From contig JAQTWX010000009.1 of NCBI GenBank assembly GCA_028689065.1, forward strand, positions 1 to 42,554: a stretch of 42,554 nt of DNA, read 5' to 3'. The notes beneath the pieces are model-generated. The model searched no databases. It was not told where the DNA came from and was given only the letters and a program-made list of their open reading frames with translations. Origin of the DNA: Candidatus Altimarinota bacterium (GTDB lineage Bacteria > Patescibacteriota > Gracilibacteria > BD1-5 > UBA2023). Made by a program: the position numbers and the translations under genes. This document shows, one piece after another, positions 3,548 through 42,554 of the stretch. Each line of letters begins with the position of its first letter. Positions within the stretch are counted from its first letter, which is position 1.

Positions 3548-5410
3548 ATGTATACACAGAGTAAAAATATATCTAAAGCAACCAAATTCTCTGGTTTTAC
3601 TCTTGTTGAACTCATCGTAGTAATAACCATCCTTGTTATACTTGGAACTATTGCCTTTACGCAACTCGGGGGTTTTTCAAGTAATGCTCGTGATTCTGAT
3701 AGGATTACTACTATTGCAAATATAGAGAAATGACTCAATATCCTCGAACTTAAAACTAGTAAATATCCTCTCCCAGAAAACATAGTAGGAACTGGAACTA
3801 TTAATGGAAGTGTCTATTCGTTTGTTTGAGATATAGGAGAATCTGTCTCTCGTCTCCTTAAGATGAGTACTGTTACCAAAGATCCTCTTACTCAAACTAA
3901 TTACACCTACGGAACTAATGCTAATAAAACACAGTACCAAATTGCTACCACTCTAGAAAATGCTATAGCGTATAATACCTCTCCTATTATTCAAGCTGTT
4001 TATGCTGATACTCTCTATCAGGCTCGAGTGAATGGGAATTATCCAGGATATATCAAGTTCCAAAGTGGTTCAGAAACTTATATAGCCAATATTCCATCTC
4101 TTCTTTTTAATAATACTGGTAGTATCGAGCTTCTTTCAACTACGAATACTTATTTTATAGTAAACAAACAACAGAATCTTCCTTATAAGATAGATGATAA
4201 AACTCAAATACAAAACAAAACCCCTACAGAAATTATTCAATTCATCACCAATAACACCAATGCTACGCTTACTGGAGTAAATATCACGAGTATAACAACT
4301 AGTGCTGGTGTATCAGAATTATTCACTGGGGCAATACTTGATAGTTTCTGATGAGATATATCTATAGTAGAGAAAGTGATTTTAGGAAATGTTTTAATAA
4401 CATCTGTAACAGATGCAGTATGTGGAACAGCAAGTACGACATACTCTTATGGAACAACAACATATGGAACAGATACATTCTGTAGTATATGAAATGCAAC
4501 TCCAACAACCCCCACTTTTCCTATGGCATGAAATAGTACAAATTGGACTTGTAATTCTCCTGATTGATGAGCAAATACTCAATGTACCGCAACACAATCA
4601 CCTGCAACTTGTACACCAGGAACTCAGTCATTTAATTACACTGGTTCGGATCAAACCTTCACGATTCCTGCTGGATGTACTCAGATTACCGTAAAGGCAT
4701 GGGGAGCAGGTGGTGGTGGTGGAGCAACCTGATATGGTAATCCAGCAGGAAATGGAGGTGCTGGATGATATGCATCTTGATCTATAAATGTTACACCAGA
4801 TTCTACGATAATTGTTATAGTCGGAGGAGGAGGTACTAAAGTGGATGCAAATGGGTATGCTGGTGGTGGTGGTGGACTATCTGGAATCTTTAGTACCTCG
4901 AAAACTCAGGGGAATGCTCTTGTTATAGCTGGTGGTGGAGGAGGAGCTGGTATTAGTGGAAATGGAGGTGCATGATGAGGTACTACAGGACTCTCAGGAG
5001 GTGGAAATTATGGAGGAGGATGAACTCAATCAACTGGTGGTGCTGGTGGAGGCTGAACATATGGTGGACAGGCCGGAAGTGCACTTCAAGGTGGTACGAA
5101 CCAATTTTCTGGTACATGGAGTGTGGCGGCATACGGTGGTGGATGACAGGGTACATATGGACCTGCTCATTACGATTTCTGATGATGAGGTGGAGGATAT
5201 TGGTGAGGGGGAAGTGGTGGTGGAAATGGTTCAACAACCGATGTTGGAGGCGGAGGTGGATCTGGTTATTCCCCATATGGAGGAACTCTAGCGTGATCAA
5301 GTGTTACACCGCCAAATATAAGTGATCCTGATTATCCATCTGGAATTGGGATCGGATGAGCTGGAAATGGTGGAAATGGTGGAAATGGTTTTGTAAAAAT
5401 TACTTGGTAA
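3548..5410 (+). CDS. Modular prepilin with Cys-containing linker and Gly-rich C-terminal domain
   Basis: A 620-residue secreted type IV pilin-like protein. A class III leader ends at residues 15-16 (SG) before FTLVELIVVITILVILG, with Glu at mature position 5. The pilin core (to about 150) carries SARDS-like NARDS and DPLTQTNYTYG, both shared with the other three prepilins here. Residues about 270-365 form a Thr/Asn-rich linker with six cysteines. From about 370 the protein reads FTIPAGCTQITVKAWGAGG and then a long GGGG/GGNG domain like the Gly-rich domains of phage and bacterial adhesins. It contains 22 in-frame TGA codons, including a TGA triplet at 5180-5188; nearly all fit Gly-rich context. 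It ends in TAA and is followed by a perfect terminator. Role inferred: pilus-tip or surface adhesin. Confidence 0.88.
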
Positions 5411-17653: not shown

Positions 17654-19246
17654 TTAAAACCCGGCTATTTTTGCTTGTTGCTTAATTTCTTTATCTGAGA
17701 GAGTGCGATTATAGATTTTAATCTCATCTATATTTCATAAAAATCAATTAACTTCGAATTTATTAGAAGTAGAATTATATCTTCAATTTATGGAGAACTG
17801 GGATTTTTTATATCATGGCTCGAATGTTCTATCTAGTGCATTTTGAGATATACTCTCGCAATGTCACTGTATTCAGTTAATATATTGACACATTGTTTTG
17901 TTACCATAATCATAAACAGTGGTTAGTAAATAAGCAGCTGTTTTATCAAAAATATTAAATAATCGGTAAGATACTACATCATTCGATATATTTCACTCTT
18001 CTGTATTTAATAGATTTCCATCAGTAGTACAAACATCATCGGGCCATACAATTTGTCCATTATTATCTCAGCATCATGTATATTTTCCGTTTAAATAAGT
18101 AGCAGTTTTAGGAGTATCATTTTGATGATATATAGAGGAAAAAAATGAATAAGGGTTATTGAGATTATTACTTAATCTCATTCATTGTAAGGTGTGTCTT
18201 TTTAAGGAATCTCAGGAATCAATATTATTGTCATTATTTCTTAAGATACTTACAAGAAAACTATCGAATGTATAATCAGGAACATCCCTGTTATAATAAA
18301 TAGAACTCTGAAAAGTAAATCATCGAGTATTTGTATTAGAATAAATATCTGTTGGCATTGCCAATATATTTTTTCCATCAATAGTGGAATTATTTTCCAC
18401 AGTAAAGAAAGCGTATTTATATATACCTGTTCAAAATAGTGTAGTTCCAGTATCTGTATAAACTCCAGTAGCAAGAGTGGTGTTGTTTTGTCTTCAGTAT
18501 AAATCATATCAGTTTCCACTTAAATCTTTTAAAAAAACTACATTATTGGTTCCAGAGTATGTTGTTTGATAATAACTCTCCATATCCCAATATCCTACTA
18601 AAGAAGAATCCAAATCCTTTAAACTCATATCTTTCTTCTTTGTACATGTTCCAGAATTAGAACTAAATGTATTCACACTACTATTCTCCATAATAAAACA
18701 AACATCCGGAGAGAAAATTCCCCCAGAATTACTATTTACCGTTTCAGTAATAGGAAAGAGTGATGGAAGAGAAGGATCAAAACTATAGTTTCCAGAAAGC
18801 TTACTATATTTTACTCCTGTATCAGCATACACAGTTTCTATTCCTGGAATACCGATATGATACGAAAGGGGATTTTCAAAATCTATCCCAATTTGATAAT
18901 ACAATCCATTTTCAAATATAGAATAATTATAAGCCTCTTTTGTTACAGGATCACTAAAATCTCCTGACATCCGAGAAATAGATTTACTATCCGCTTTTCC
19001 TACTTGTATACTAACTATTCCTCCAGTATAACTCACTGCACCAGATGGTATAGGAGCATTTCCATGAGCTACTATAGCAAGCTCTATCGACTGAGTAATA
19101 TTACTCATATCCGATACTCTTCTACTATCTCTGGCACTACTCGCAAACCCATTCATCTGTACAAATCCTATAGTTCCAAGAATAGAAAGAATAGTTATGA
19201 CCACGATGAGTTCGACGAGGGTAAATCATTTCAATTTATTATTCAT
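17654..19246 (-). CDS. Modular prepilin fused to LamG-like domain
   Basis: A 530-residue secreted prepilin. The leader MNNKLKG ends in a Gly encoded by TGA (19226-19228), the essential -1 residue of prepilin peptidase sites; then comes FTLVELIVVITILSILG. The pilin core shows SARDSRRVSDMSNI and DPVTKEAYNY, shared with the other prepilins. Residues about 216-530 form a LamG/concanavalin-like jelly-roll, from LVGYWDMES and LKDLSGNGYDL to GNIDEIKIYNRTLSDKEI, the usual ending of that family. There are 16 TGA codons, most in the LamG part. It ends in TAA. Likely role: sugar or host-surface binding by a pilus-tip protein (inference). Standard-code calling breaks it into fragments. Confidence 0.88.
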
Positions 19247-19420
19247 CTCGTGATGATTTCTTATTTTCATATGGACAAGGTTGAAGAAATACGAATTTAA
19301 ACAAACCTATTATCATTTTTTTTTCTATAAATCAAATTTTGTTTTTCTGAGCGATATAATCTTTTTGCCTTCCTTCTGAAAATTCTTATACTTCTTTTAT
19401 TAACCTTTAATTATCTATCT

Positions 19421-26165: not shown

Positions 26166-26915
26166 TTAGTAAGGAAGAACAGTTCCTTTATTAGTAACAA
26201 CATTTGTCCCATTATTTGAAATAAGACCATCAGATTCAACAACATTAAGTGCAAATGCACCTGTTGCAGTAAGAGTAGTGCTATCAAGAGTAATTCTTGT
26301 AAGGTCTGCAGATATACTAGTTATAGAACCAGTATGAGTACCGTCAGTAAGAACATCTCCTACTTTAAATACTCCGAAACCAGATTCAAGAGTAATAATA
26401 GAGTTTAATACTGTTCCACTTGCTGTATCTGCTGCAGTACGAGCTCGGTATGTTCCCATTACAAGGGCAGTATTTGTTTCTTCAAGAGTAGCAGCGAGTT
26501 GGTAAGCAGTACCTGCAAGACTAGTTGCTCCCATTTTATAAGCTACTGCCTTGATTGGATCTTTGAATTTAGCACTATCAATACCAAGAACAGTGTAATT
26601 AACATCCCCCGCAGTATATTCAGCACCAGGTGTAACACCAGTACCAGCAATAGAAAGTGTATTGAGCTGATTAGCAGCTCCACTAGAAACCATATTTATA
26701 TATGACATTCCGCTCTTTGCTTGGCTAGTCATAATTTGTGTATTAATCTGATTAAGATCAGAAGTTCGTTGTGAATCTCGAGCACTTGCTGACATACCTC
26801 CGAGATTAAGGAAGGCGATAGTACCAAGAATTACGAGAATCGTAATAACAACAATAAGTTCGACAAGTGTAAACCCTTTAACGTTCATAGACGTCTGTGT
26901 TTTCTGTGTAACCAT
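26166..26915 (-). CDS. Type IV pilin, probable major subunit
   Basis: A 249-residue prepilin without any extra domain. The leader MVTQKTQTSMNVKG is followed by FTLVELIVVITILVILG, with Glu5 present. The core shows SASARDSQRTSDLNQINTQI and DPIKAVAYKMG, then TAYQLAATLEE, shared with the three modular prepilins. It has no TGA, a strong promoter, an ~80-base leader and its own terminator, all fitting the highly expressed main pilin. The start at 26915 gives a normal leader; an upstream in-frame extension to 27026 lies within the promoter and leader and is rejected. The two glycosyltransferases downstream may act on it (inference). Confidence 0.9.
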   Translation of the reverse strand: MVTQKTQTSMNVKGFTLVELIVVITILVILGTIAFLNLGGMSASARDSQRTSDLNQINTQIMTSQAKSGMSYINMVSSGAANQLNTLSIAGTGVTPGAEYTAGDVNYTVLGIDSAKFKDPIKAVAYKMGATSLAGTAYQLAATLEETNTALVMGTYRARTAADTASGTVLNSIITLESGFGVFKVGDVLTDGTHTGSITSISADLTRITLDSTTLTATGAFALNVVESDGLISNNGTNVVTNKGTVLPY

Positions 26916-26957
26916 AATATAAAAAAGGAAAATAAATAAAATATAAACCCCATTGAA

Positions 26958-27060
26958 TATAAAAGCTTTTTTATGAGGTGTTCTAAAAGCTAAAGATATT
27001 AGAACACATTTTTTATAAAAAGTCAAATATTCTACAACTTTCTATAAAAAAGCTTTTATA
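26958..27060. repeat. 17-bp inverted repeat flanking the pilin promoter
   Basis: TATAAAAGCTTTTTTAT at 26958-26974 and its exact reverse complement at 27044-27060, 69 bp apart. One arm lies in the leader and the other upstream of -35. Each arm holds the palindrome AAAAGCTTTT. It could be a pair of operator sites or a leader structure. Confidence 0.7.
26998..27026 (-). promoter_or_regulatory. Promoter of the simple pilin
   Basis: TTGACT (-35, 27021-27026), 17-bp spacer ending TGTGT, TCTAAT (-10, 26998-27003), minus strand. The best -35/-10 match seen in the window. Confidence 0.85.
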
Positions 27061-28092: not shown

Positions 28093-29217
28093 ATGAATTT
28101 TTCATCACTTCCATTCATTGATTTCTACGTATCGGTCATAGATAACTATGGCGATATGGGTTTTGCTGTAAATCTAGCTCTTTCCCTCCATAAAAAGTAC
28201 CCGGATTTCCGTATTCGGTTTTTTTCAGATGACTCTGCTCTATTTCAGAAGTTTTTTAGAAAAGGTGTTCCAGAATGGATGGAGTATAGATTACTTGAGG
28301 AATTGGAGAAAGAAAATCCCATAACTCCGGCGAATCTTATCTGTAATTTCTTTGACCGTCCTCTTCCGAAAATGTATCTTGCACGATTTCCGTATGAGAA
28401 AACGATTATATCATTCTCATATTTCCTTCTTCATACAGGACTCGAATCACTCCATAAAACAACATATGTACTCGAAAGTGGGCATGATAGAGTTATTCAT
28501 TTCGTCCCATCGCTTTTACATGGTGGGGGAGGGGTGATTATAAATCCAGAGATTGAGAGGAAGAAAGAGGAAATTCTGAAGATATCGAGAATAGAAGCTC
28601 GGTCGAAGTTTCTTGAGAAGATTTCCTTAAAAATCCAAGGAGATTTCTGATTATGACTGAAATGACAAAATAATATCTGTGAAAAAAAATGGGTTTCTGT
28701 TTTTGTGTATCCAGAAACGATGGAAAGTATTTTGGAAGGGATAGATTATACTCAGGAAGATGCAGTATTTTTTGTTTTCTGAAATGATTTTTTATTAACA
28801 AATGGTGGACATGAGAAAATAGTCTGGATGCCGTTTCTCTCTCTCGCGGATTACGGAGTATTTCAGTCACTCTGTGATGCAAATGTTGTCCGAGGGGAGA
28901 ATAGTCTTTGTCAGAGTCTTATTTCCTGAAAACCGACACTCTGGGATATCTACAAGGAGTCCAATGGGGCTCACTGGGAGAAAATCGAGGACTATCTTGT
29001 GTTTCTCAAGAAACAGTTTCCTGAAGCTCGTTGGGAAGAATACAACAATATCATGCGAATATTTAATGGACAAAAGGGGAAAGAATTGGTTTTTTCGGCA
29101 TTTCTGGATTTTTTATTTTGGCACAATGAATATGAAGAGGCTTTTTGAGAGATTTCTGAGTATGTGAAAGAGGAATGTGATTTAATTCGGAAACTGGAAG
29201 AAATTTTGGAAAAATAA
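28093..29217 (+). CDS. earP: EF-P arginine rhamnosyltransferase EarP
   Basis: A 374-residue EarP (DUF2331), the usual family length. The N-terminus YVSVIDNYGDMGFAVNLALSL carries the two catalytic-site aspartates (D17, D21). The C-domain has MPFLSLADYGVFQSLCDANVV followed by RGENSL (Glu269), then KPTLWDIY, matching the family's PFLxQxDYDxLLWxCDxNFVRGEDSF and FVWxIYPQ. EarP moves rhamnose from dTDP-rhamnose to Arg32 of EF-P. Six TGA codons are Gly; three cluster at 28648-28670 and would otherwise halve the gene. It is convergent with efp, its substrate gene. The ATG at 28093 fits the family start better than the upstream one at 28042. Confidence 0.92.
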
Positions 29218-29246
29218 AAATCCTTCTCAAATCGAGAAGGATTTTT
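29216..29246. terminator. Bidirectional terminator between earP and efp
   Basis: A 13-bp stem (29216-29228 with 29234-29246), AAATC loop, T run after; it overlaps the earP stop codon. Confidence 0.9.
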
Positions 29247-29259
29247 ATTTTCTGAGCGA

Positions 29260-29823
29260 CTATTTTGCTCGTTCTTGGTATTCACCAGTTTCTGTATTTA
29301 CCATGATATCTTCTCCAGCATCAACAAATCCTGGGATTTTGATAGCGTATCCAGTGTTGGTCACAGCATCTTTAGTGATTTTTCCATCAGCAGTATTTCC
29401 TTTCACACTTGGATCACATTCTGTAATAGTAAGTCGAACAGTGAGTGGAAGGAGGATTCCTACGAATTTCCCTTCATATTGTTGTACGTCTACTCGGAGT
29501 CCTTCTGTAAGGAACCATTTCATATCACCAATATTTTCTTCAGAGAGTTCGATTTGTTCGTATGTTTCCTGATTCATAAAGGCATACATTCCTCCTGATT
29601 CATAGAGAAATTCGAATTTAGAACGATCAAGAGTTACATCATCGAATTTATCTTCCCCATCAAATACTCGGTCTACAGAATTCCCTTGAAGGAGATTTTT
29701 GAGACGCATTTTAATGTTTGTCGCACCACGACCAGCACGGTGCATTTCGTATTTTACTACGAGCATAAGGTCATTTCCGATTTTAAGTACCGTACCTGGA
29801 CGAGACTGCATAGCTGTTTTCAT
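29260..29823 (-). CDS. efp: Elongation factor P
   Basis: A 187-residue EF-P of normal length. Domain I starts MKTAMQSRPGTVLKIGNDLML, and the loop that reaches the P-site tRNA reads YEMHRAGRGATNIKMRLKNLL, placing arginine at position 32 where lysine-type EF-Ps have Lys34. Domains II-III follow, with GNTADGKITKDAVTNTG and IKIPGFVDAGEDIMVNTETGEY. It relieves stalling at polyproline. Arg32 is the residue that EarP rhamnosylates, and earP is the neighbouring gene. It ends in TAG, one of only two TAG stops seen. No TGA codons. Confidence 0.97.
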   Translation of the reverse strand: MKTAMQSRPGTVLKIGNDLMLVVKYEMHRAGRGATNIKMRLKNLLQGNSVDRVFDGEDKFDDVTLDRSKFEFLYESGGMYAFMNQETYEQIELSEENIGDMKWFLTEGLRVDVQQYEGKFVGILLPLTVRLTITECDPSVKGNTADGKITKDAVTNTGYAIKIPGFVDAGEDIMVNTETGEYQERAK

Positions 29824-31393: not shown

Positions 31394-33034
31394 CTATGGA
31401 TTATAATTTTGAATAATTGGTTCCGCGAGCTTATTAATAGGAGTATAAGGAGAGGAATCATCGGCAACTACGAAAACAGAAAGTCCTTTGAACCAATCTT
31501 TTCATGAGAAAGTCTCTATATATCCCTGAAAGCCATTTGCCTGAGCCAACTGTGATTCCACTGAAGAAACAGTGGGATTCCATGGGGCATTGAGAGCATT
31601 TTCTCTGCTTGGAATTCCGAGTTCCCCGAAAAATACAGGCTTATGCCATGTGTCGTAAAAATTCTTCACTTCCTTGTATACGTTTTGACCTCGTCCCCAT
31701 GTGGCCGTGGATAAAAGAGCATCTTTGATATTCTGCACAGTAGGAACAAGAGGCGCCCCTGTGGCCGTGAGCTCGAAATACGCGGCAATTGCTATAATAT
31801 CCGGTGCGGCAAAGAGGGGATTGGTAAGTTTTGTATTATAGGCAGCAGTGGTGGATCATACTCCTATATCCCATGTCGCGTCATACCACCAATTGGTTCT
31901 ATATATCACCTTTCATTGGTATCATAATCCTTTCACGTAATTTACGGTATTAATCCAATCATTAGCATTTGCAGTTGTCTCCATTTGGACAAAATTTGAA
32001 GCAATGTAGATTCCGTACGTATGATATGGGATTGCTATAGTATTAACCAAATCACTGAGCACAACCTCCTTCCAATTCGAGAAGAAGGCAGTTGTATCGG
32101 CAGGTGCCCAACTTGTTTCAGAAGCATTTCAGTTATTGATAACTGGATACGGTTCCAGTAAAACGGACACTCCTATATTATTTAGCTCTTTTATTAGTGC
32201 AATGGCATTTGCTTTGCTTGTTGCATTAATGGTAAAAGTCGAGCTTGTGACACTTGGTATAGTTATCTGTACTGGGACATTTACGGTATTTAACCTTAAT
32301 TTCTTTACATCACTGATAGTTTTAGTTGGAGTAAAGCTTGGTTGATTCTCGAGAAAGATATTCAAGTTTCCGGATTTTATTCCAAGACTCTTGAAATTAT
32401 TTTTTTCGAAAAGAATGCTCTCACTATATATGCCCATTCATGTTCCCGATAAAACAGTATTCTTCCCAGGAAATAACATCTTGTAATATGTTCCGCTATT
32501 GGTTGTAAGTATATCTATACTGCTTCATGTAACGGGAGAATTATCCGTCAAGGTCAGTATTCAGACGTTATCACCGAGAGTTTGCATGTATCTATTCGCA
32601 TAATTTCCAGCATAGACTTTATCTACGAAACTGAGATAGGAAGCATCTTCCAGATATGTTCAAATCTGGTATTTTGATTGATTACTATTGGTTGTATATA
32701 TATAATATTCTTTATCCAAAGGATCCTTTCAACCCTCTGAGGAAAGCCCTATTATGTTGGTGATGGGACTCGATAAATATCACTGATATCGAGTAATGAC
32801 TCACGAAGCAGAAATGGCAGTAGGATTATCTGGTATGGGAAGTGTGCTATGTTTGATAAAATACAATTGAAATGCATTATTTATATCTGAAATATTGGTC
32901 AAACGAACACTATCTCTCGCTGAGTTTATATACCCTTGTATTGAAATGAATCCTATGGTTCCAAGTATTGATAAAATTGTAATGACCACGATAAGTTCTA
33001 CTAAAGTAAATCATCGATATTTTTTATTTTTCAT
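31394..33034 (-). CDS. Modular prepilin fused to GH113-like TIM barrel
   Basis: A 546-residue fusion. The leader MKNKKYRG ends in a Gly encoded by TGA (33011-33013), followed by FTLVELIVVITILSILG. The pilin core has SARDSVRLTNISDINNAF and DPLDKEYYIY, as in the other prepilins. From about residue 215 a TIM-barrel-like region resembles glycoside hydrolase family 113: LGIKSGNLNIFLE, KLRLNTVNVPVQITI, LNNIGVSVLLEPYPV, KVIYRTNWWYDATWD and the nucleophile-type motif KPVFFGELGIPSRENAL (Glu471). At the expected acid/base Glu there seems to be Asn347 (YIASNFVQME), so activity is uncertain. Thirteen TGA codons. It ends in TAG. Confidence 0.83.
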
Positions 33035-33134
33035 AATATTACTTCTATTCATAAAAAAAGAGAAAATAAATAAGAATATCATCCTTAAAAAAGATAACAT
33101 TCTTATTTTCACAAGTCAATATTTTACAAAATAT

Positions 33135-33722
33135 TTATCCATTAAACTTTGGAGCGTATACTTCTTTGTAACGCTGTTCGCATTCTTTGATAATCTTCAC
33201 CGCTTCCTCGACTCCGTAGAACCCGACAACTTCTCCGGTTCCTGGTTTTTTGAGGTGCTTGTAGTATTCCCAGTAGTGAGAGGTTTCTTTTTGCCAGTGG
33301 GTTCCGAGCTGTTCATAACTCGTGATATGATCCTGACGTTTGTCATCCGCGAGAACCGCGATGACTTTGTCATCTACTTCCCCTCCGTCCACAAACTTCA
33401 TGATTCCGATAATTCGAGCTTCTACGAGAGAACCTGGTACGAGTGGCTCATCAACATTGACGATCTCGATATCGAGAGGGTCTCCGTCCTCGTCCCAAGT
33501 ACAAGGTATAGCCCCATAGGTGAATGGATACATCATAGAAGAATATCCCACTCGGTCGAGCTTGAGTTGCCCGGATTCAGTAATGATTTCGTACTTGTTT
33601 CGAGAAGAAGAATTGACTTCCACGATAGAATTAAGACGAAGTTCTGACTCGTCTGCAAAAGCAGGAAGTATATGAAGGAGATTGAGCATATATTTGCTCG
33701 GTGCGTGGTCGATATTTGCCAT
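33135..33722 (-). CDS. ppa: Inorganic pyrophosphatase, family I
   Basis: A 195-residue soluble pyrophosphatase. It has IVEVNSSSRNKYE (the E-x-x-x-x-S-x-x-K-Y-E block), YPFTYGAIP, and the metal-binding signature DEDGDPLDIEIV, then DDKVIAVLADD and HYWEYYKHLKKPG. It hydrolyses PPi to drive biosynthesis. The start at 33722 lies 34 bases from a -10 element. No TGA codons. Confidence 0.97.
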   Translation of the reverse strand: MANIDHAPSKYMLNLLHILPAFADESELRLNSIVEVNSSSRNKYEIITESGQLKLDRVGYSSMMYPFTYGAIPCTWDEDGDPLDIEIVNVDEPLVPGSLVEARIIGIMKFVDGGEVDDKVIAVLADDKRQDHITSYEQLGTHWQKETSHYWEYYKHLKKPGTGEVVGFYGVEEAVKIIKECEQRYKEVYAPKFNG

Positions 33723-34498: not shown

Positions 34499-34856
34499 TG
34501 ACTGAATTTTATAAATCAAGTTTTATCTTGAATCAATGGAATATTTAAGTTTCATTTAAGATACGAGTCCATGATGGTAGTATCATCCTTTTTACTTGCT
34601 TTTATTTAAAAAAGGATACACTATGTAAATCATAAGATAAAAAAATCTTGTGTCAAATATCATACAAAACCATATCCAAAAACAAAAATTAAAACAAAAA
34701 TCAAAAACCAAAATAAAATGTTTTTTGATTTTTTTTGAATATTTTTTAATAGATAAGTTCGCATTTCAGAATATTCCTCTTGGGAAAATATCTCTGAATC
34801 GAACACCTTGTGTATAACAACATTGATGGTCCATTTTGCATTATAACTTTTATTCT
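34499..34856. other. AT-rich upstream region of the giant gene
   Basis: 358 bp without a gene. It holds an A-rich tract (about 34675-34720), a T-rich tract (34722-34751) and a small inverted repeat ATCCTTTTT / AAAAAGGAT near 34587-34616. A TATAAC hexamer at 34842-34847 lies nine bases before the giant gene's ATG, without a clear -35. Probably regulatory DNA. Confidence 0.45.
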
Positions 34857-37800
34857 ATGTATACTATTCAGAGAATTCGAAAGATTATTGCTTCTTTCCT
34901 TATCTTATTTCTCCTTGTTGATACAAATGTATCATTTGCACTCATGTTCGATACGGCGAACGTCGTATCGGGTGGTATGTCTCAAGTTCCTTTGAGTGAA
35001 CAAAAGATTCACGATATCTCCTCATATCTTTTTCAAAATAGAAGTCCCATCACTACTTCGACTCTTTTCGAGGCGAGTGGAAGTCAGTTCGTAGAACTTG
35101 ATTCTAAGAAACCACCACTCTATAATCTCACATCTTCGGGAGCCATTCCTTATGATTTTTCTTATGGAAAGAGCCTTTATGATGCGAATATCGCGATAGT
35201 TGATCTTCCGACAACCAATAGTGGGCGATATACCTATGAAGCACCATACTATTGTGATCTTCTTATATCTTCGCTTGCGAAGTTTACAAAGATTGGGAAT
35301 AATGTCTGTCTCTCAAATTATACGGATTTCAACACTGCCTATATGGCAAATAATGAACGAACCTATGTTTCGGTCATTAAAACCGATGAGATAAAAACAG
35401 CGAATTTGAGCCACTTCGGGATTCTTATATTTCCAGATATTATCCTCGGGAAACATTCGGATATCCTCGACAGCTTCGGAAGCAGGGGGATTGATAATAT
35501 CAAGACTTTCGTCCGAAATGGGGGAGTGGTTTATTTTTCATCAAAGAGTCTCATTCTCTCCGATAAGATGCAGTTGACCAATAAAGTGGTCGATGAGAAT
35601 ATGCTCGTAAAACATCATGAAAATCAAGGAGAAATTGTCTTTGCTTCCGGAACAGATTTCACGAGTCAAGTACTCAACACCGGCCTTTATGAAGGGAAAA
35701 ATTATTCAGCTCTCTCAGGAAGTGGATACTACGATTATCTCGTAGGGTCATATTTTCTTCATACTAATTCTGACCCGGCAGTTGTTCCTGTTCGGTACTT
35801 CAATATTGCTCACGATGCGAATTATTATTTTCAAGATCTGATAACCCTAGAAGATGCTCCACTTGATGCTGCGAATAATATTTCTGCTTTTTATAAACCC
35901 TATGAGAAAGGACTTGTAGTATATAATGGAGGAAATAGTCTTTTTTCTCCACAATCAGGAAGTCATAATCTTTTCATCAATCATACGCTTAATAGTATTC
36001 TCCTCTCGTTTATGCGAGATCTTTACGTGTCAGCAAAGGTAGTTCAAAAATCAAATCCAGATATACAAGAAAATCTTGTTCCTGCACTGGAACGTAATAT
36101 TATTCTTCAGTATTCTCTTGATGTAAAAAATGTTTATAATATTGCTTCAACCAATCTTCAGGCAGTTATCGATATCGCTCCAGGAGGACTTATTATCGAT
36201 GGAAGTATCCCAGGTGAGTGTCAGGTGAGTTCAGGAAGTGGTCAGATTATTTGTACCCGGAGCAGTCTCGATGCAGGAACTAGCTGGAATATAACATTTG
36301 GACTCCGTGTGGATGAGCCAACTTTCACACAAGCAGGAACCAATATCGAAGTAACTCGAACACATCTTTATTATACTGATTCTCGTGGTATAGCCGTGGA
36401 TCAGAATCTCTCTAAACAGACTATCGATGCGGTAGAATCAGCGAATCTCCGAGCCGCGCTCAATATTGATCCAGCAGGATATTATCCACTCAAAGGAGAG
36501 GGGGTATATATTGATCAAGTACTTAATACCGAGAATAAAGGGACAACAGAAGCAACCAATGTTCGATACAGCGTAAATGTTCCACTTATCTCTCCACTCT
36601 TTGATGAAAATGATCAGAATATGCTTATCTCTCGTCTCATTTTTGCGAAAGATTATCATAATATGCTCGTAAATCCTGCAACGAAGACGAATGTTTATCC
36701 GATGCAAAATACGGGAACATGTACCGTAACTATTCCGTATGCTGCTGATCGATGTAAAGATTATGTTATTCCGAAACTTTTTCCAACTTCTTCAGTTCTT
36801 GTTGATAACTATGATGAGCCAGTTCTTCGTGCGAAAACTGATATGACTGATGCTTGGGCGAATATCACTCAAGGAGTTTTGAATCCTGATCTCGGAGGAA
36901 ATATCCTCAAACAGACTTTCCTTCCTGATGCGAACTCTATTTTCATGCATGCAGCTCCTCGTCGGATGGTATACCAATATCCGACCAAAAAAGAACTTCT
37001 CTTCGCTCGACAGGATATCTATTTTTATAATAATCCTGCCTATCCGCTCCCTCATGGAGCAACTGGATACAATCAGTTTATTTCCATCGAAAAGAATATA
37101 AATTGTACGAAGATTCCTGGGGTATATGGATATCCAAATGGAATTATTGCTGGAGAATATCCGAATTCACTCGACTGTAATCCGACTGGAGCGGGAGTTT
37201 CTTGGGTAAATAACAAGATTTCTTGGGATAATCTTCCAGCAGGTATGGAGCAATCCAGTTGGCTCTATCCGATATCTCCAGAGAACAATATCACGTCTGC
37301 AAGTGACCTTGCAGGATTCGATGCAAACGGAAATTATATCGGACAACAGAATGATTCAGGAACAACGAGCCAGATCTATCCTATTAAGTATATTCAGGGA
37401 AGTTACGGGACTTTCTATCTTCCAGAACGATCAACTCCGAAAGGAGGGTATATCGAGTTCGATCTCCCGAGTGGAGTGACTGCGAGCAAAGCATATATTC
37501 TTGCTGATCATATTGCTGTAACCAATACAGAAATAGTCGGACAAACGGTTCGAGCCTACTTTTATCGTGGAAAACTTCCCAATGAACAGTCACTCAAATC
37601 CATCATCGGTGTGGGACTTATGGGAGTAAATAGTGATATGTTAAATATTCCAGTAAAAGTATATTCTCTTAAGTATGACCTCGCAGGGAATCCTGTTAAT
37701 AAGTACGATCTTGAGACAACAATTACAACGAATTTTTCTAAGTATTCATTTCTCGAACTTCCAGCAGTAAAACTTGCTTTTGATCTTCCGCGTCGTAAAC

Positions 37801-40800
37801 GTATTCAGGAAGCAAGTATAATTTCACTCGGACTCACAGAAGGACAGGTGAATGTTCTTTTTACTCGACCAGAGTATTATAGTGCCTCGCTTGTATTTGT
37901 AAAAAACACGCTCGGAGAACTTACAACACTTATGACTCAAGCAGGTCTCACTCAGACCCAACAAGATGCTCTTTCCGCGATGTTTGTTGCAACTCCGACC
38001 GAGAGTTATGTTCGAAAATTTGAAAACCTTCAACCATTTGTTCGATTCGGAACATATATTCAAGAACTTGCGTTCCACCGTACTGTCTGGGGAACTGCCG
38101 AAGATCATCCGATTAGTGATCCAGGAATTATGGCAGACCATCCGATGTTTGCAAGTGTTGGAAATGTTGGTATGTCACCTATTCCTTTTAAGGAATATCT
38201 GACAACTGGTAAAGCACAGATAATACCAATGGCAACCGATAATGCTCGTATTGATTATACCGATATTTTTGGTAGGGATTTTGCTGCACCGATTCGTACA
38301 ACTATCCCGGAAGCTGTACCACTTCCTCCACCACTCAAAAACTTCATAATGAATACGACGTATGAGATGTACGACCAATCTGGAAAACGGGTATATGCCT
38401 GGGACGGGGCTACCGAGCTCGAGATTCGTCAGAATATCAAGCTCTACAATAACTATCCGAAGTTTTTTGATCCGACTATTTGTGGAGATAATCCGAGTTC
38501 TCCACACTATGGAACGTGTTGGGACGGAACCGGTTCTACGCTTACTGGATACAATGGACAGACAAATTATACACTTGCAGACCATGTTATGACTCCGGTA
38601 GATTTTTACTGGACACATAATATTGATCTCTTTACGACCAAGTCTGCATACGATTCTTTTATGTCAGGACTTCAAGCACAGATGAGTGCTTCTGGAAGTA
38701 ATGTATCTTCTGGATATACTGTACAGACTCTTGTTCGTGCTGCTGATGGAGTGGGAAATATCCATCTTGCTGCAGGAGAGAAGATAGACGATAGGGTACA
38801 TAATTATTCTCCGGAAGTAGAAAAATATTATCCAGAGGGATATATCGGAAATTCCATGTGGAATCTGACGCATTTTGATTATGATGACTCAGTATTCTCT
38901 AAGGGGTATCCGTATCACATGGATAATCTTCTTCCGAATCCTTCAACAAGCATCTCTCTTCCGCATAATATTCTCGCGATACCTATTCATCGAGGAGTTT
39001 CCTATAAGATGAAGTATTTTTCTGAGGAACCAGCATACCTTCAGTATGAAACTGCAAATAATGGAAAAATAGAACATAATGTTACTCCGTATGCTTCTTG
39101 GAAATATACAGGACGTACTGGTTGGTGGGGGGAAAATCTCCAGAATAGTGATGCGACGCTTCTTGCAGGACAGGGAACTTCGAATAACATTCCATACGCT
39201 TGGAATGGGACCGATTATCTAAAATCTCCTCTCATAAATGCTTCTGATTTTTCTCAGACACAGACAAGTAATGTGTATAGTTGTCTCTTTAATCCGGGAA
39301 AACTTCGAGATGTCCCAGGGAAGTATGTTTATAAAGCGAATGTAGTACAGAACAATATTATTCCGATGATTCCATGGATTCAGAAGGAAAATGAAAATGC
39401 AAACTATCTTTCCAATTATCCTTGTAATACAAATCCGTATACAGAATCAAATCTATCAAAGGTAAATAATATCGTCGAAACAGAAAGTGCTTTCTGGCTC
39501 TATTTTGCATCGAATCTTCGAGGGGAATCAAAAGAAGGATTAAATATTATTAATCATCTCCTTCCATTTCCTGGACAATCCTATGAAGGGGATATAAAAT
39601 CTATCGAAGGAGGTCGATTTACTTACTGGAATCCAGCTCTTGGGCCAAATGCGTTTGAAGTGGTAGATAATCCTGTTTCAGTTGTTAAAACAGTAAGCTC
39701 TGATCTTTCGGTAGAAAAAGAACTCCTTCCATATACGCTCAAGAATTACAAGACCGATGCATATCTTCTCTATACTCTCAAAGATCCGGGAGAGCTTTTC
39801 ACTGATTTACAGGGACGTGAAACAGCACGTCCTTGGAAAGATGAGATATATACTGATTCTCGTGGAGATGGAAATTATTCTTCTAGCGTGTATGTTGGAG
39901 CAAATTACAATGGTTCTGCTATGAAATCACTTCTTCGACCAGGAGATAGAACGGTCGTAGGACTTGATATATATAATAATTCTGGGTATGACTGGGCAAT
40001 GATAGGAAGTGGTTCTGTTGCAAATAATAATGGACAATTCACTACCTATATTTCTGGAGGTATTGATTTTACTATTACCGGAAATCAGGCACTCAATGCT
40101 AATGATCTCCTTTCAAAAGTGGCACGAAATGTACTCAAACCTACTGCGTACAATTTTCTCACAATCAATATCCCAGCAGAGATTCAGCCGTATGTTCACG
40201 TTGCTCCTTCGGATGCGAATATCCGTACGACCGGAACCTTCTTTGACTTCGATTTCGTAAATATCACCACTATTCGTGATGGATTTAAGGGAAGTTACTA
40301 TCTCGATGTTACGGTTGATCCGACCATCCCAGATAATCTTCGATCCAAGGTATATGCGATTAGTGCTACTCTCAATCCTGATTATTTCAATCAACTTCCA
40401 TGAGTATCTGGAAAAGATCCAGTAAATTGGTCAGATGTTCCACATCTTCCTGATTTTAAATTTGCTATTGCAGATACGAGTGGAAATGCATTTTATCGAA
40501 ATGGATACTCAACAGGTATTACTCTCGATATTGCGTATAATTCTGGATTTATTCTCGATTCTGCTCAGGAAATCAATAGTGACGGACTTCTCGCATTCCG
40601 TCTCGCAGCGTGAGATGGAACTAATAAACACCGTCGTCTCCGAGAGGTATTTGAATCACTCACGAGCTCTGGATATTCTCTCCATACATTTGCTCCAACT
40701 GTTACGTCTTCTGGTTCTGAATCCGTCGCATCAATCGGACTCGATACGGGTGGTATTTATGAATTCCCCTATATTAATGCGAGTGGCTCTATTATTCCAA

Positions 40801-42554
40801 AGACTTATATTCTCGTCCACTTAAAACGAGATAGTCTCACTGATGGGGAACATCAGATTGAATCGAGTGACACGCTCGGGTTTACAAATTTTGCAGGAGT
40901 CCAGAAATCGAAAACGAATACTACTCCGCTCACAGGGTATGCTCAAGGTCCGAAGCTTGATATTTCCTATAAATCTGCTCTTATCGGAGCAACCCGTGGA
41001 GATATTCTCGATATTCAGAAACTCACTGAAGGAGAAAATACGGTTGAGGTAAAACTCTTTCTTAAGAATACTGGAACTGATATTGCTTTCAATCCGACAC
41101 TTCGAGTTCATGTAGCAACAGGAGTGACAGTTGATCCAGTGTTCACACAGAATGCACTCATCAATGGAAATGAGATTGTTATTCATAATCTTTATTCTGC
41201 ATCAGGAACTCTCGGTGCAGAAGGGGAGGCAGTAGGACCAGGGATTACGAACTATTTCCCTGTATACCTTTCTTATTCTGGAGTTTATCAAGATACTCCA
41301 CTTTCGCTCGTCAATGATGCGGCGTACGAATTTACTCCATATGATCCGATTCTTCCAGCTCTGAGTGGTAGTTACTCGACTGGATTTTCACTCGATTTCG
41401 TAAAAACAGCAGCAAGCTATATACGATCCGGAATAGATACCACTGTTCTATCTCTTTCAGGAAATACGGTCGGAATCTACTGGGATGTAAGCACGAATGC
41501 TGTTCCTGTTTCTGTAAAAGAAACCAATACAGGAAGTCAGCTTCTCGTAAAAAATCTTTCTCTTGATCCAACAAAAGCTCATCTTATAGATGCTATTTCT
41601 TACTTCCGAACAAAAACAGGAGATTTCAAGAAGATTCAAGAATTTATCATCCCTATTCCGAAGGAGGATCTTTATCTCCGAAAAAACAGTGCTACGACTA
41701 GTAACAATAATGCTCTTGTATTCTCTCTTGCAACCAATAAACTTGGACGTTATGACGGAGTATATGATGTAACTACTTCTCAGGGAGATATATTTACTGG
41801 AACAGCTGCAGTACCAAATAATGGGACGATAGCCGGAACTATTACAAATGTTGATGTTACTATCGATACGACTGTGACGGTAAATCTCTATGGTTCTGGA
41901 ACAAGCTTTCTTACTGGAACAACATTTACGGTTGCAGGGGTTCCAGTAAATATCACGAATGGAACGGCAGTTCGAAATGGAAATAATGTCACTGTTTCAT
42001 TTAAGACGAATAAACTTAAGGATACGTGTTATAAACTTGAGAGAGATACAGTTTCTATTACCCAGTATTGTCTCGCTCTCAGTGCTGGTATAACGAGTTT
42101 CTCCGATACTACTACCGATGTATTTACCGACCATCGATATACAGTTCGTCTTTATCCGATTGGACAAACAGGATCTATTCTCTCTGCAGATATCCTCTAT
42201 GTTTCTCCGGACCCAAATACCAGCTCTATTCCGGTAAAGATTCTCAGTACTCCAGAAACTCAAAATGTTATTGCTTTCCAAAAAGTAAAAGATTTTGTGG
42301 ATATTTATATGATCGAGGGAACTCCTGTTCAATATGCTGTAAAGATGCGTACAGCCACTCAAGAAAATATGATTCAGAATTCTATCGATGGAAGTGTACA
42401 GGTAAATTACGGAACTGGACAAACCATCTATGCCGGAGCTCTCTGGTCCAATATTCTCAGTAATCCTATCGTGAGTACTGGAAGTTCTGTTAATCTTCCT
42501 GGGTATACCGTATCTAAGGCTGCAGAATTTGGTAGTACTACTACCCCATTTGTT
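34857..42554 (+). CDS. Giant secreted surface protein, 3' end cut by window end
   Basis: At least 2,566 residues without a stop. It begins MYTIQRIRKIIASFLILFLLV and reaches NVSFA, a signal peptide; the ATG at 34857 gives a normal one, and the upstream start at 34836 does not. Residues up to about 380 alternate beta/alpha with GILIFPDIILG and FVRNGGVVYFSS, suggesting a flavodoxin/GATase-like fold. Later parts are Asn/Ser/Thr/Tyr-rich beta structure with conserved-repeat (DUF11-like) passages such as NIILQYSLDVKNV and NTVEVKLFLKNTGTDI. Cysteines are rare. Only two TGA codons (40401 and 40611) occur; the first 1,848 codons have none. No repeats copied exactly. Possible giant adhesin or surface-layer protein (inference). 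Confidence 0.9.

Follow-up and report, generated by a model that had tools for sequence, protein, structure and literature searches.

A divergent EarP subfamily in Gracilibacteria and predicted arginine rhamnosylation of elongation factor P

RESULTS

A convergent earP-efp gene pair

The window, by which we mean the whole 42,554-nucleotide stretch of DNA analyzed, is contig C9 of a 1.04-Mb genome that is 96% complete. Genes in the window are open only if TGA is read as glycine (translation table 25). Two of them, earP and efp, converge on a short intergenic region, and the locus has the following features.

28093..29217, + strand: earP, divergent EF-P arginine glycosyltransferase, 374 amino acids under code 25
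28141..28143, + strand: codon for EarP D17, equivalent to catalytic D13 of Pseudomonas putida EarP (family alignment)
28153..28155, + strand: codon for EarP D21, equivalent to catalytic D17 of P. putida EarP (family alignment)
28897..28899, + strand: codon for EarP E269, equivalent to catalytic E273 of P. putida EarP (family alignment)
29210..29255, both strands: hairpin between the two stop codons, likely a bidirectional terminator
29260..29823, - strand: efp, arginine-type elongation factor P, 187 amino acids, free of TGA codons
29728..29730, - strand: CGT codon for EF-P Arg32, predicted glycosylation site in HRAGRGATN

The earP frame opens with the ATG at 28093, closes with the stop codon at 29215-29217 and contains six in-frame TGA codons, which table 25 reads as glycine. 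The stop codons of earP and efp lie 42 bases apart, and one hairpin can form there on either strand, with energies of -23.5 and -22.7 kcal/mol and z values of -6.8 and -6.7. An earlier reading of the locus, made from the sequence alone, had described convergent genes with a shared terminator; the convergence is borne out. A consensus terminator scan of the intergenic region did not list this A+T-rich hairpin, and its terminator role is therefore one that we infer, the hairpin likely terminating both earP and efp. The convergent arrangement is kept in genera g1, g15, g19 and g22, which belong to two families. The two genes are not adjacent in several other genera of the order, and most outgroup loci have them in tandem.

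Elsewhere in the window, four proteins (encoded at 3548-5410, 17654-19270, 26166-27026 and 31394-33373) carry a type IV pilin N-terminal methylation motif. Their C-terminal parts are large and differ from one another, being glycine-rich, weakly sialidase-like, unassigned, and GH113-like as judged by Pfam. A giant open frame at 34836-42554 encodes a surface protein-like product of >2570 residues and continues past the contig end.

The EarP protein has the catalytic site and predicted fold of known EarPs

The window EarP matches Pfam family PF10093 with 122.6 bits (cut-off 25, E = 2.6e-35). In P. putida EarP the invariant catalytic residues are D13, D17 and E273, and alanine variants of all three are inactive (PMC5615199). 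D17, D21 and E269, which the sequence-only reading had picked out as key residues, are their exact counterparts. E269 lies in a VRGENS motif that also holds R267 (P. putida R271) and S271 (P. putida S275). The wider donor pocket is represented as well, with P. putida F191, Y193, F252, R271, S275 and Y291 corresponding to F204, Y206, F248, R267, S271 and Y287; the register at F191 and Y193 was taken from the family alignment because the phmmer pairwise alignment is out of register there. The aromatic position 258 of the P. putida enzyme is Tyr in the window EarP. In P. putida the R271A and Y291A variants do not work in vivo, and most of the turnover is lost in F191A and Y193A (PMC5615199).

An AlphaFold model of the window EarP, computed from a 28-sequence input, had a pLDDT of 88.5 and a pTM of 0.89. 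The 14 best Foldseek matches to this model were all EarP, as were the 11 best solved structures found by VIA-align, ten of them at Z = 33.0-35.5 and 5nv8 at 23.6. The first GT-B enzymes other than EarP appeared at a Z of about 19. Together with the conserved residues, these matches indicate that the predicted fold and catalytic site are those of EarP. A structural model without donor-binding residues had been named beforehand as a refutation; the catalytic triad, the aromatic cage and the equivalents of R271, S275 and Y291 are present in the model, whereas the positions of Q255, D274 and R278 are changed.

EF-P carries arginine at residue 32

The protein encoded at 29260..29823 is the only EF-P found in the genome of the window. 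Its three domains (PF08207, PF01132 and PF09285) pass the Pfam thresholds, and it scores 193.0 bits against TIGR00038, above the equivalog cut-off of 185.8. Residue 32 is arginine, encoded by CGT within HRAGRGATN, as had been claimed for a GRG loop. The residue at position -2 is Ala rather than Pro (A30-G31-R32), and EarP-dependent EF-Ps are reported to have Arg32 without Pro at -2 (PMC6544042).

The genome of the window encodes a dTDP-L-rhamnose pathway

EF-P activation in P. putida is strictly dependent on dTDP-L-rhamnose (PMC8184846). A search for rmlABCD, named beforehand as a check, located a contiguous rmlB-A-C-D cluster in the genome of the window (G000) at C1:21993-25235. All four genes exceed their equivalog cut-offs (bits/cut-off: rmlA 469/361, rmlB 413/365, rmlC 238/156 and rmlD 262/224), so this organism can make dTDP-L-rhamnose. 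Each of the four contains in-frame TGA, showing that the cluster comes from a code-25 organism and is no standard-code contaminant. It is flanked by glycosyltransferases and other genes resembling surface-glycan genes. A second rmlD lies on another contig (L144:2913-15905, G000:C13) in a cluster that encodes a His-Xaa-Ser radical-SAM system, where an HxsB maturase (497 bits) is accompanied by several other proteins resembling radical-SAM enzymes and by a small protein with a (GSH)n repeat at its end.

The earlier expectation that the pair implies a dTDP-rhamnose source thus holds for this genome, but it does not extend to all relatives. We find no rml cluster in 17 of the 31 genomes that keep EarP, and 12 of these 17 have a completeness of 90% or more. 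Among the 12 are G075 (five contigs) and G083, G124, G063 and G125, at 98-99%. In this count G105, whose cluster is cut at a contig end, was scored as positive, and G056, with RmlB alone, as negative. If gaps are independent, the chance that missing sequence alone accounts for the 12 is about 1e-17. Within the window's genus, two EarP carriers have rml genes (only C and D were found in G072) and three do not (G074, G075 and G076). Plain counts show a weak association of EarP with rml (Fisher p = 0.011), which is gone on independent pairs (median p = 0.6).

EarP and one EF-P type come and go together

A survey of 353 genomes of the class detected EarP in 31 of them, all belonging to the order of the window, so that 31 of the order's 77 genomes carry it; an order-specific profile gave the same number. 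A phylum-wide sample of 380 genomes contained EarP in no genome besides the window's own. On an RpoB tree, the distribution of EarP in the order needs 11 changes, which points to repeated gain or loss inside the order.

The EF-P tree of the order has two well supported clades, which differ in their loops: [HKR]R[AG]GRGAT[NT] in the first and QKV[MV]GRGGSI or VAMGKG-like in the second. The EarP-type loop occurs in 30 of the 30 EarP-positive genomes in which an EF-P was found but in only 2 of 42 EarP-negative ones (Fisher p = 3e-18). On the RpoB tree the association stands at 6 versus 0 independent pairs (p = 0.031). EarP and one EF-P type therefore come and go together across the order. G090 and G095 carry both EF-P types, and only the EarP-type copy adjoins earP.

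The best EF-P tree joins the EarP-type EF-Ps with proteobacterial Arg-type EF-Ps (support 100/96), as would be expected of xenologs. A tree in which all EF-Ps of the order were forced together was not rejected (AU p = 0.46, or 0.75 with the loop columns dropped), and we therefore do not claim a xenolog origin, although the best tree favors common descent of the EarP-type and proteobacterial Arg-type EF-Ps.

Several genomes depart from the simple pattern. L085 (G059) and L079 (G060), from genomes 80% and 93% complete, combine an EarP-type EF-P loop with rml genes, and even the order-specific profile detected no EarP in either. In L107 (G078) and L116 (G065) the EF-P is sister to the EarP-type clade, has a loop three residues longer (NKGRGKGYLV) and is found without EarP; the enzyme was possibly lost together with the loop change. 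Two EarP-loop EF-Ps per genome, only one of them beside earP, are present in G080, G083 and G100-G105. G073, which is 97% complete and of the same genus as the window, yielded neither EF-P nor EarP; EF-P is otherwise nearly universal. The neighborhood in G073 is rearranged, and the absence may stem from a deletion or from an assembly gap. Finally, 32 EF-Ps of the order (L105, L106, L069, L072 and 28 more) have Arg at the tip of a QKV[MV]GRGGSI-like loop. This Arg either works unmodified or is served by some other modifier.

The Gracilibacteria EarPs form a divergent subfamily

In the alignment, four P. putida positions are substituted in the window EarP: Q255 by Leu, R23 by Asn, D274 by Asn and R278 by Gln. 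In all 31 EarPs of the order a hydrophobic residue or Ser stands at the Q255 position, R23 and D274 are both lost in every one readable at these positions, and R278 is lost in all except one. Conversely, Q255, R23 and R278 are kept in all 13 other EarPs sampled, namely that of P. putida and twelve from Proteobacteria, Cetobacterium and Treponema, and D274 is kept in 12 of these 13, with Glu in the remaining one.

The window EarP scores 113.7 bits against TIGR03837, the NCBI EarP equivalog, for which the cut-off is 347. Six relatives from the order score 38-133 bits, and the EarPs of Cetobacterium (295) and Treponema (241) also lie below the cut-off. An annotation pipeline relying on the TIGR03837 cut-off would leave the clade unnamed at such scores.

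A phylogeny of EarP had been proposed as a test of transfer. In a tree whose outgroup EarPs were limited to pattern matches, all 31 EarPs of the order form one clade with 100/100 support, which a long branch separates from the rest. Among the EarPs sampled, this separate clade lends no support to a recent transfer of EarP from Proteobacteria. Apparent EarP fragments in several genomes are pieces of Pfam matches whose frames are open under code 25. All 31 EarP frames are open, some broken only at contig ends. L024 (G055) and L028 (G056), of one genus, have Asp in place of the catalytic Glu273; the P. putida E273D variant is strongly impaired (PMC5615199).

As judged from these comparisons, the Gracilibacteria EarPs are a divergent EarP subfamily: one deep clade that, by alignment, is without Q255 and the R23-D274 salt bridge, both of which are kept elsewhere among the EarPs sampled.

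DISCUSSION

In the organism of the window, Arg32 of EF-P is probably rhamnosylated through the mechanism already known and by a variant form of EarP. What we observe comprises both genes, the fold predicted for EarP, its catalytic residues, a pathway for the donor and co-inheritance with one EF-P type. By analogy with the EarPs that have been studied, RmlA, RmlB, RmlC and RmlD would make dTDP-L-rhamnose from glucose-1-phosphate, and the C-terminal domain of the GT-B enzyme EarP would bind it, while EF-P would offer its N-terminal domain as the acceptor. The guanidino group of Arg32 would be activated by D17, D21 and E269, Arg32 would receive rhamnose with inversion, and the rhamnosylated Arg32 would aid the ribosome in proline-proline bond formation. 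The reaction, the sugar and the polyproline effect are thus those expected from studied EarPs. The central prediction of the sequence-only reading, EF-P rhamnosylation in a CPR bacterium, is accordingly strengthened by the rml cluster, the EarP-like model and the co-occurrence with one EF-P type. Several findings count against the known mechanism: the losses of Q255, R23-D274 and R278, the 17 rml-negative carriers among 31, and a TIGR03837 score of 113.7 against 347.

Possible polyproline targets do exist. Nine motifs of the form PPP or PP[GDENW], one of them PPP, occur among the roughly 12,300 residues encoded in the window, and the motif-bearing frames include the DNA polymerase III alpha subunit, RpoC and RpoB (names read from the sequence). 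These motifs supply candidate targets and argue only weakly for the selection for polyproline translation that had also been suggested.

The donor of the 17 carriers without rml is unexplained by this scheme. These relatives must either take up dTDP-rhamnose, attach a different sugar or have an EarP that stands idle. The first of these readings, in which all carriers use dTDP-L-rhamnose and the rml-negative ones obtain it or a precursor from an attached host, is a tentative one that we think has a real but minority chance of being right. It concerns the relatives and is compatible with the known mechanism in the window's own genome. In its favor, uptake of host cytoplasm occurs in the related Absconditabacteria (PMC8080830), a host-dependent life with many transporters has been inferred for Gracilibacteria (PMC11452946), and some bacteria contain dTDP-Rha at millimolar concentrations (PMC5615199). 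The transport step itself is where this reading is strained. We know of no nucleotide-sugar transporter in such cells.

Alternatively, the EarPs of the clade might glycosylate Arg32 with a changed or relaxed donor, such as a UDP-hexose within the synthetic reach of all members, so that rml is not needed. The 17 rml-negative carriers, of which 12 have a completeness of 90% or more, would fit this reading, as would the loss of Q255 and of the R23-D274 pair, joined in nearly every member by that of R278, and rml-negative relatives encode GalE-, UGD- or GMD/Fcl-like sugar-nucleotide enzymes (judged by eye). Rhamnose itself makes no protein contact in the solved enzyme (PMC5615199), which with the loss of Q255 leaves room for a different donor. 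However, the aromatic cage and the equivalents of R271, S275 and Y291 are identical in rml-positive and rml-negative carriers. Moreover, rml-positive and rml-negative species of one genus have close EarPs (66% identity), so that a donor switch would need to be general or easy. We therefore regard a changed donor as unlikely. If it were true, EF-P arginine glycosylation would here be a new kind independent of the rhamnose pathway, and the rml genes of the window's genome would serve the cell surface.

It is very improbable that the pair is a relic in which EarP is inactive, or its product dispensable, and Arg32 works bare. Such a reading could draw on the GRGGSI-like EF-Ps, 30 of 32 of which sit in EarP-negative genomes (the exceptions, G090 and G095, carry EarP beside another EF-P), and on G059 and G060, which retain the EarP-type loop with no EarP detected. 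It is opposed by the joint gain and loss of EarP and the EF-P type and by the 31 open EarP frames, which keep their catalytic residues (Glu to Asp in two) at low overall identity. That EarP modifies another protein and lies near efp by accident is less credible still: the two genes are apart in several genera, but even at separate loci EarP strictly co-occurs with one EF-P loop type.

Published occurrences of EarP lie in Beta- and Gammaproteobacteria, Fusobacteria, Planctomycetes and Spirochetes (PMC5615199). In the openly accessible literature that we searched, we found no report of EarP in Gracilibacteria or CPR. Across an order of bacteria that are reduced and recoded, EarP is retained or lost jointly with one EF-P type, and the depth of the EarP clade allows one to ask how arginine modification arose. 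The rml-negative carriers pose a testable question: whether dTDP-rhamnose is needed, another sugar is placed on Arg32, or the nucleotide sugar is derived from a host.

Comparison with known EarP and EF-P systems

The closest points of reference are the EarPs of P. putida, P. aeruginosa and Neisseria meningitidis (PF10093, GT104, TIGR03837). These share with the Gracilibacteria enzymes the GT-B fold, the D-x3-D and Glu residues, the aromatic cage and R271/S275/Y291, and a partner EF-P with Arg32 is likewise common to both. The two groups differ in that identity is about 20-26%, the genes are convergent here and in tandem earP-efp order there, and many Gracilibacteria carriers are without rml. 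In P. putida EarP, Q255 binds the deoxyribose 3'-OH and the R23-D274 salt bridge joins the two domains; both are lost in the Gracilibacteria clade. On the acceptor side, the arginine-type EF-P with an SGRN loop carries its Arg at the tip of the loop and lacks Pro at -2, as here, the Gracilibacteria loop being [HKR]R[AG]GRGAT[NT] instead of SGRN. The EarPs of Fusobacteriota (Cetobacterium) and Spirochaetota (Treponema) are also non-proteobacterial and also fall below the TIGR03837 cut-off; unlike the Gracilibacteria clade, they keep R23, Q255, D274 and R278 and group with those of Proteobacteria.
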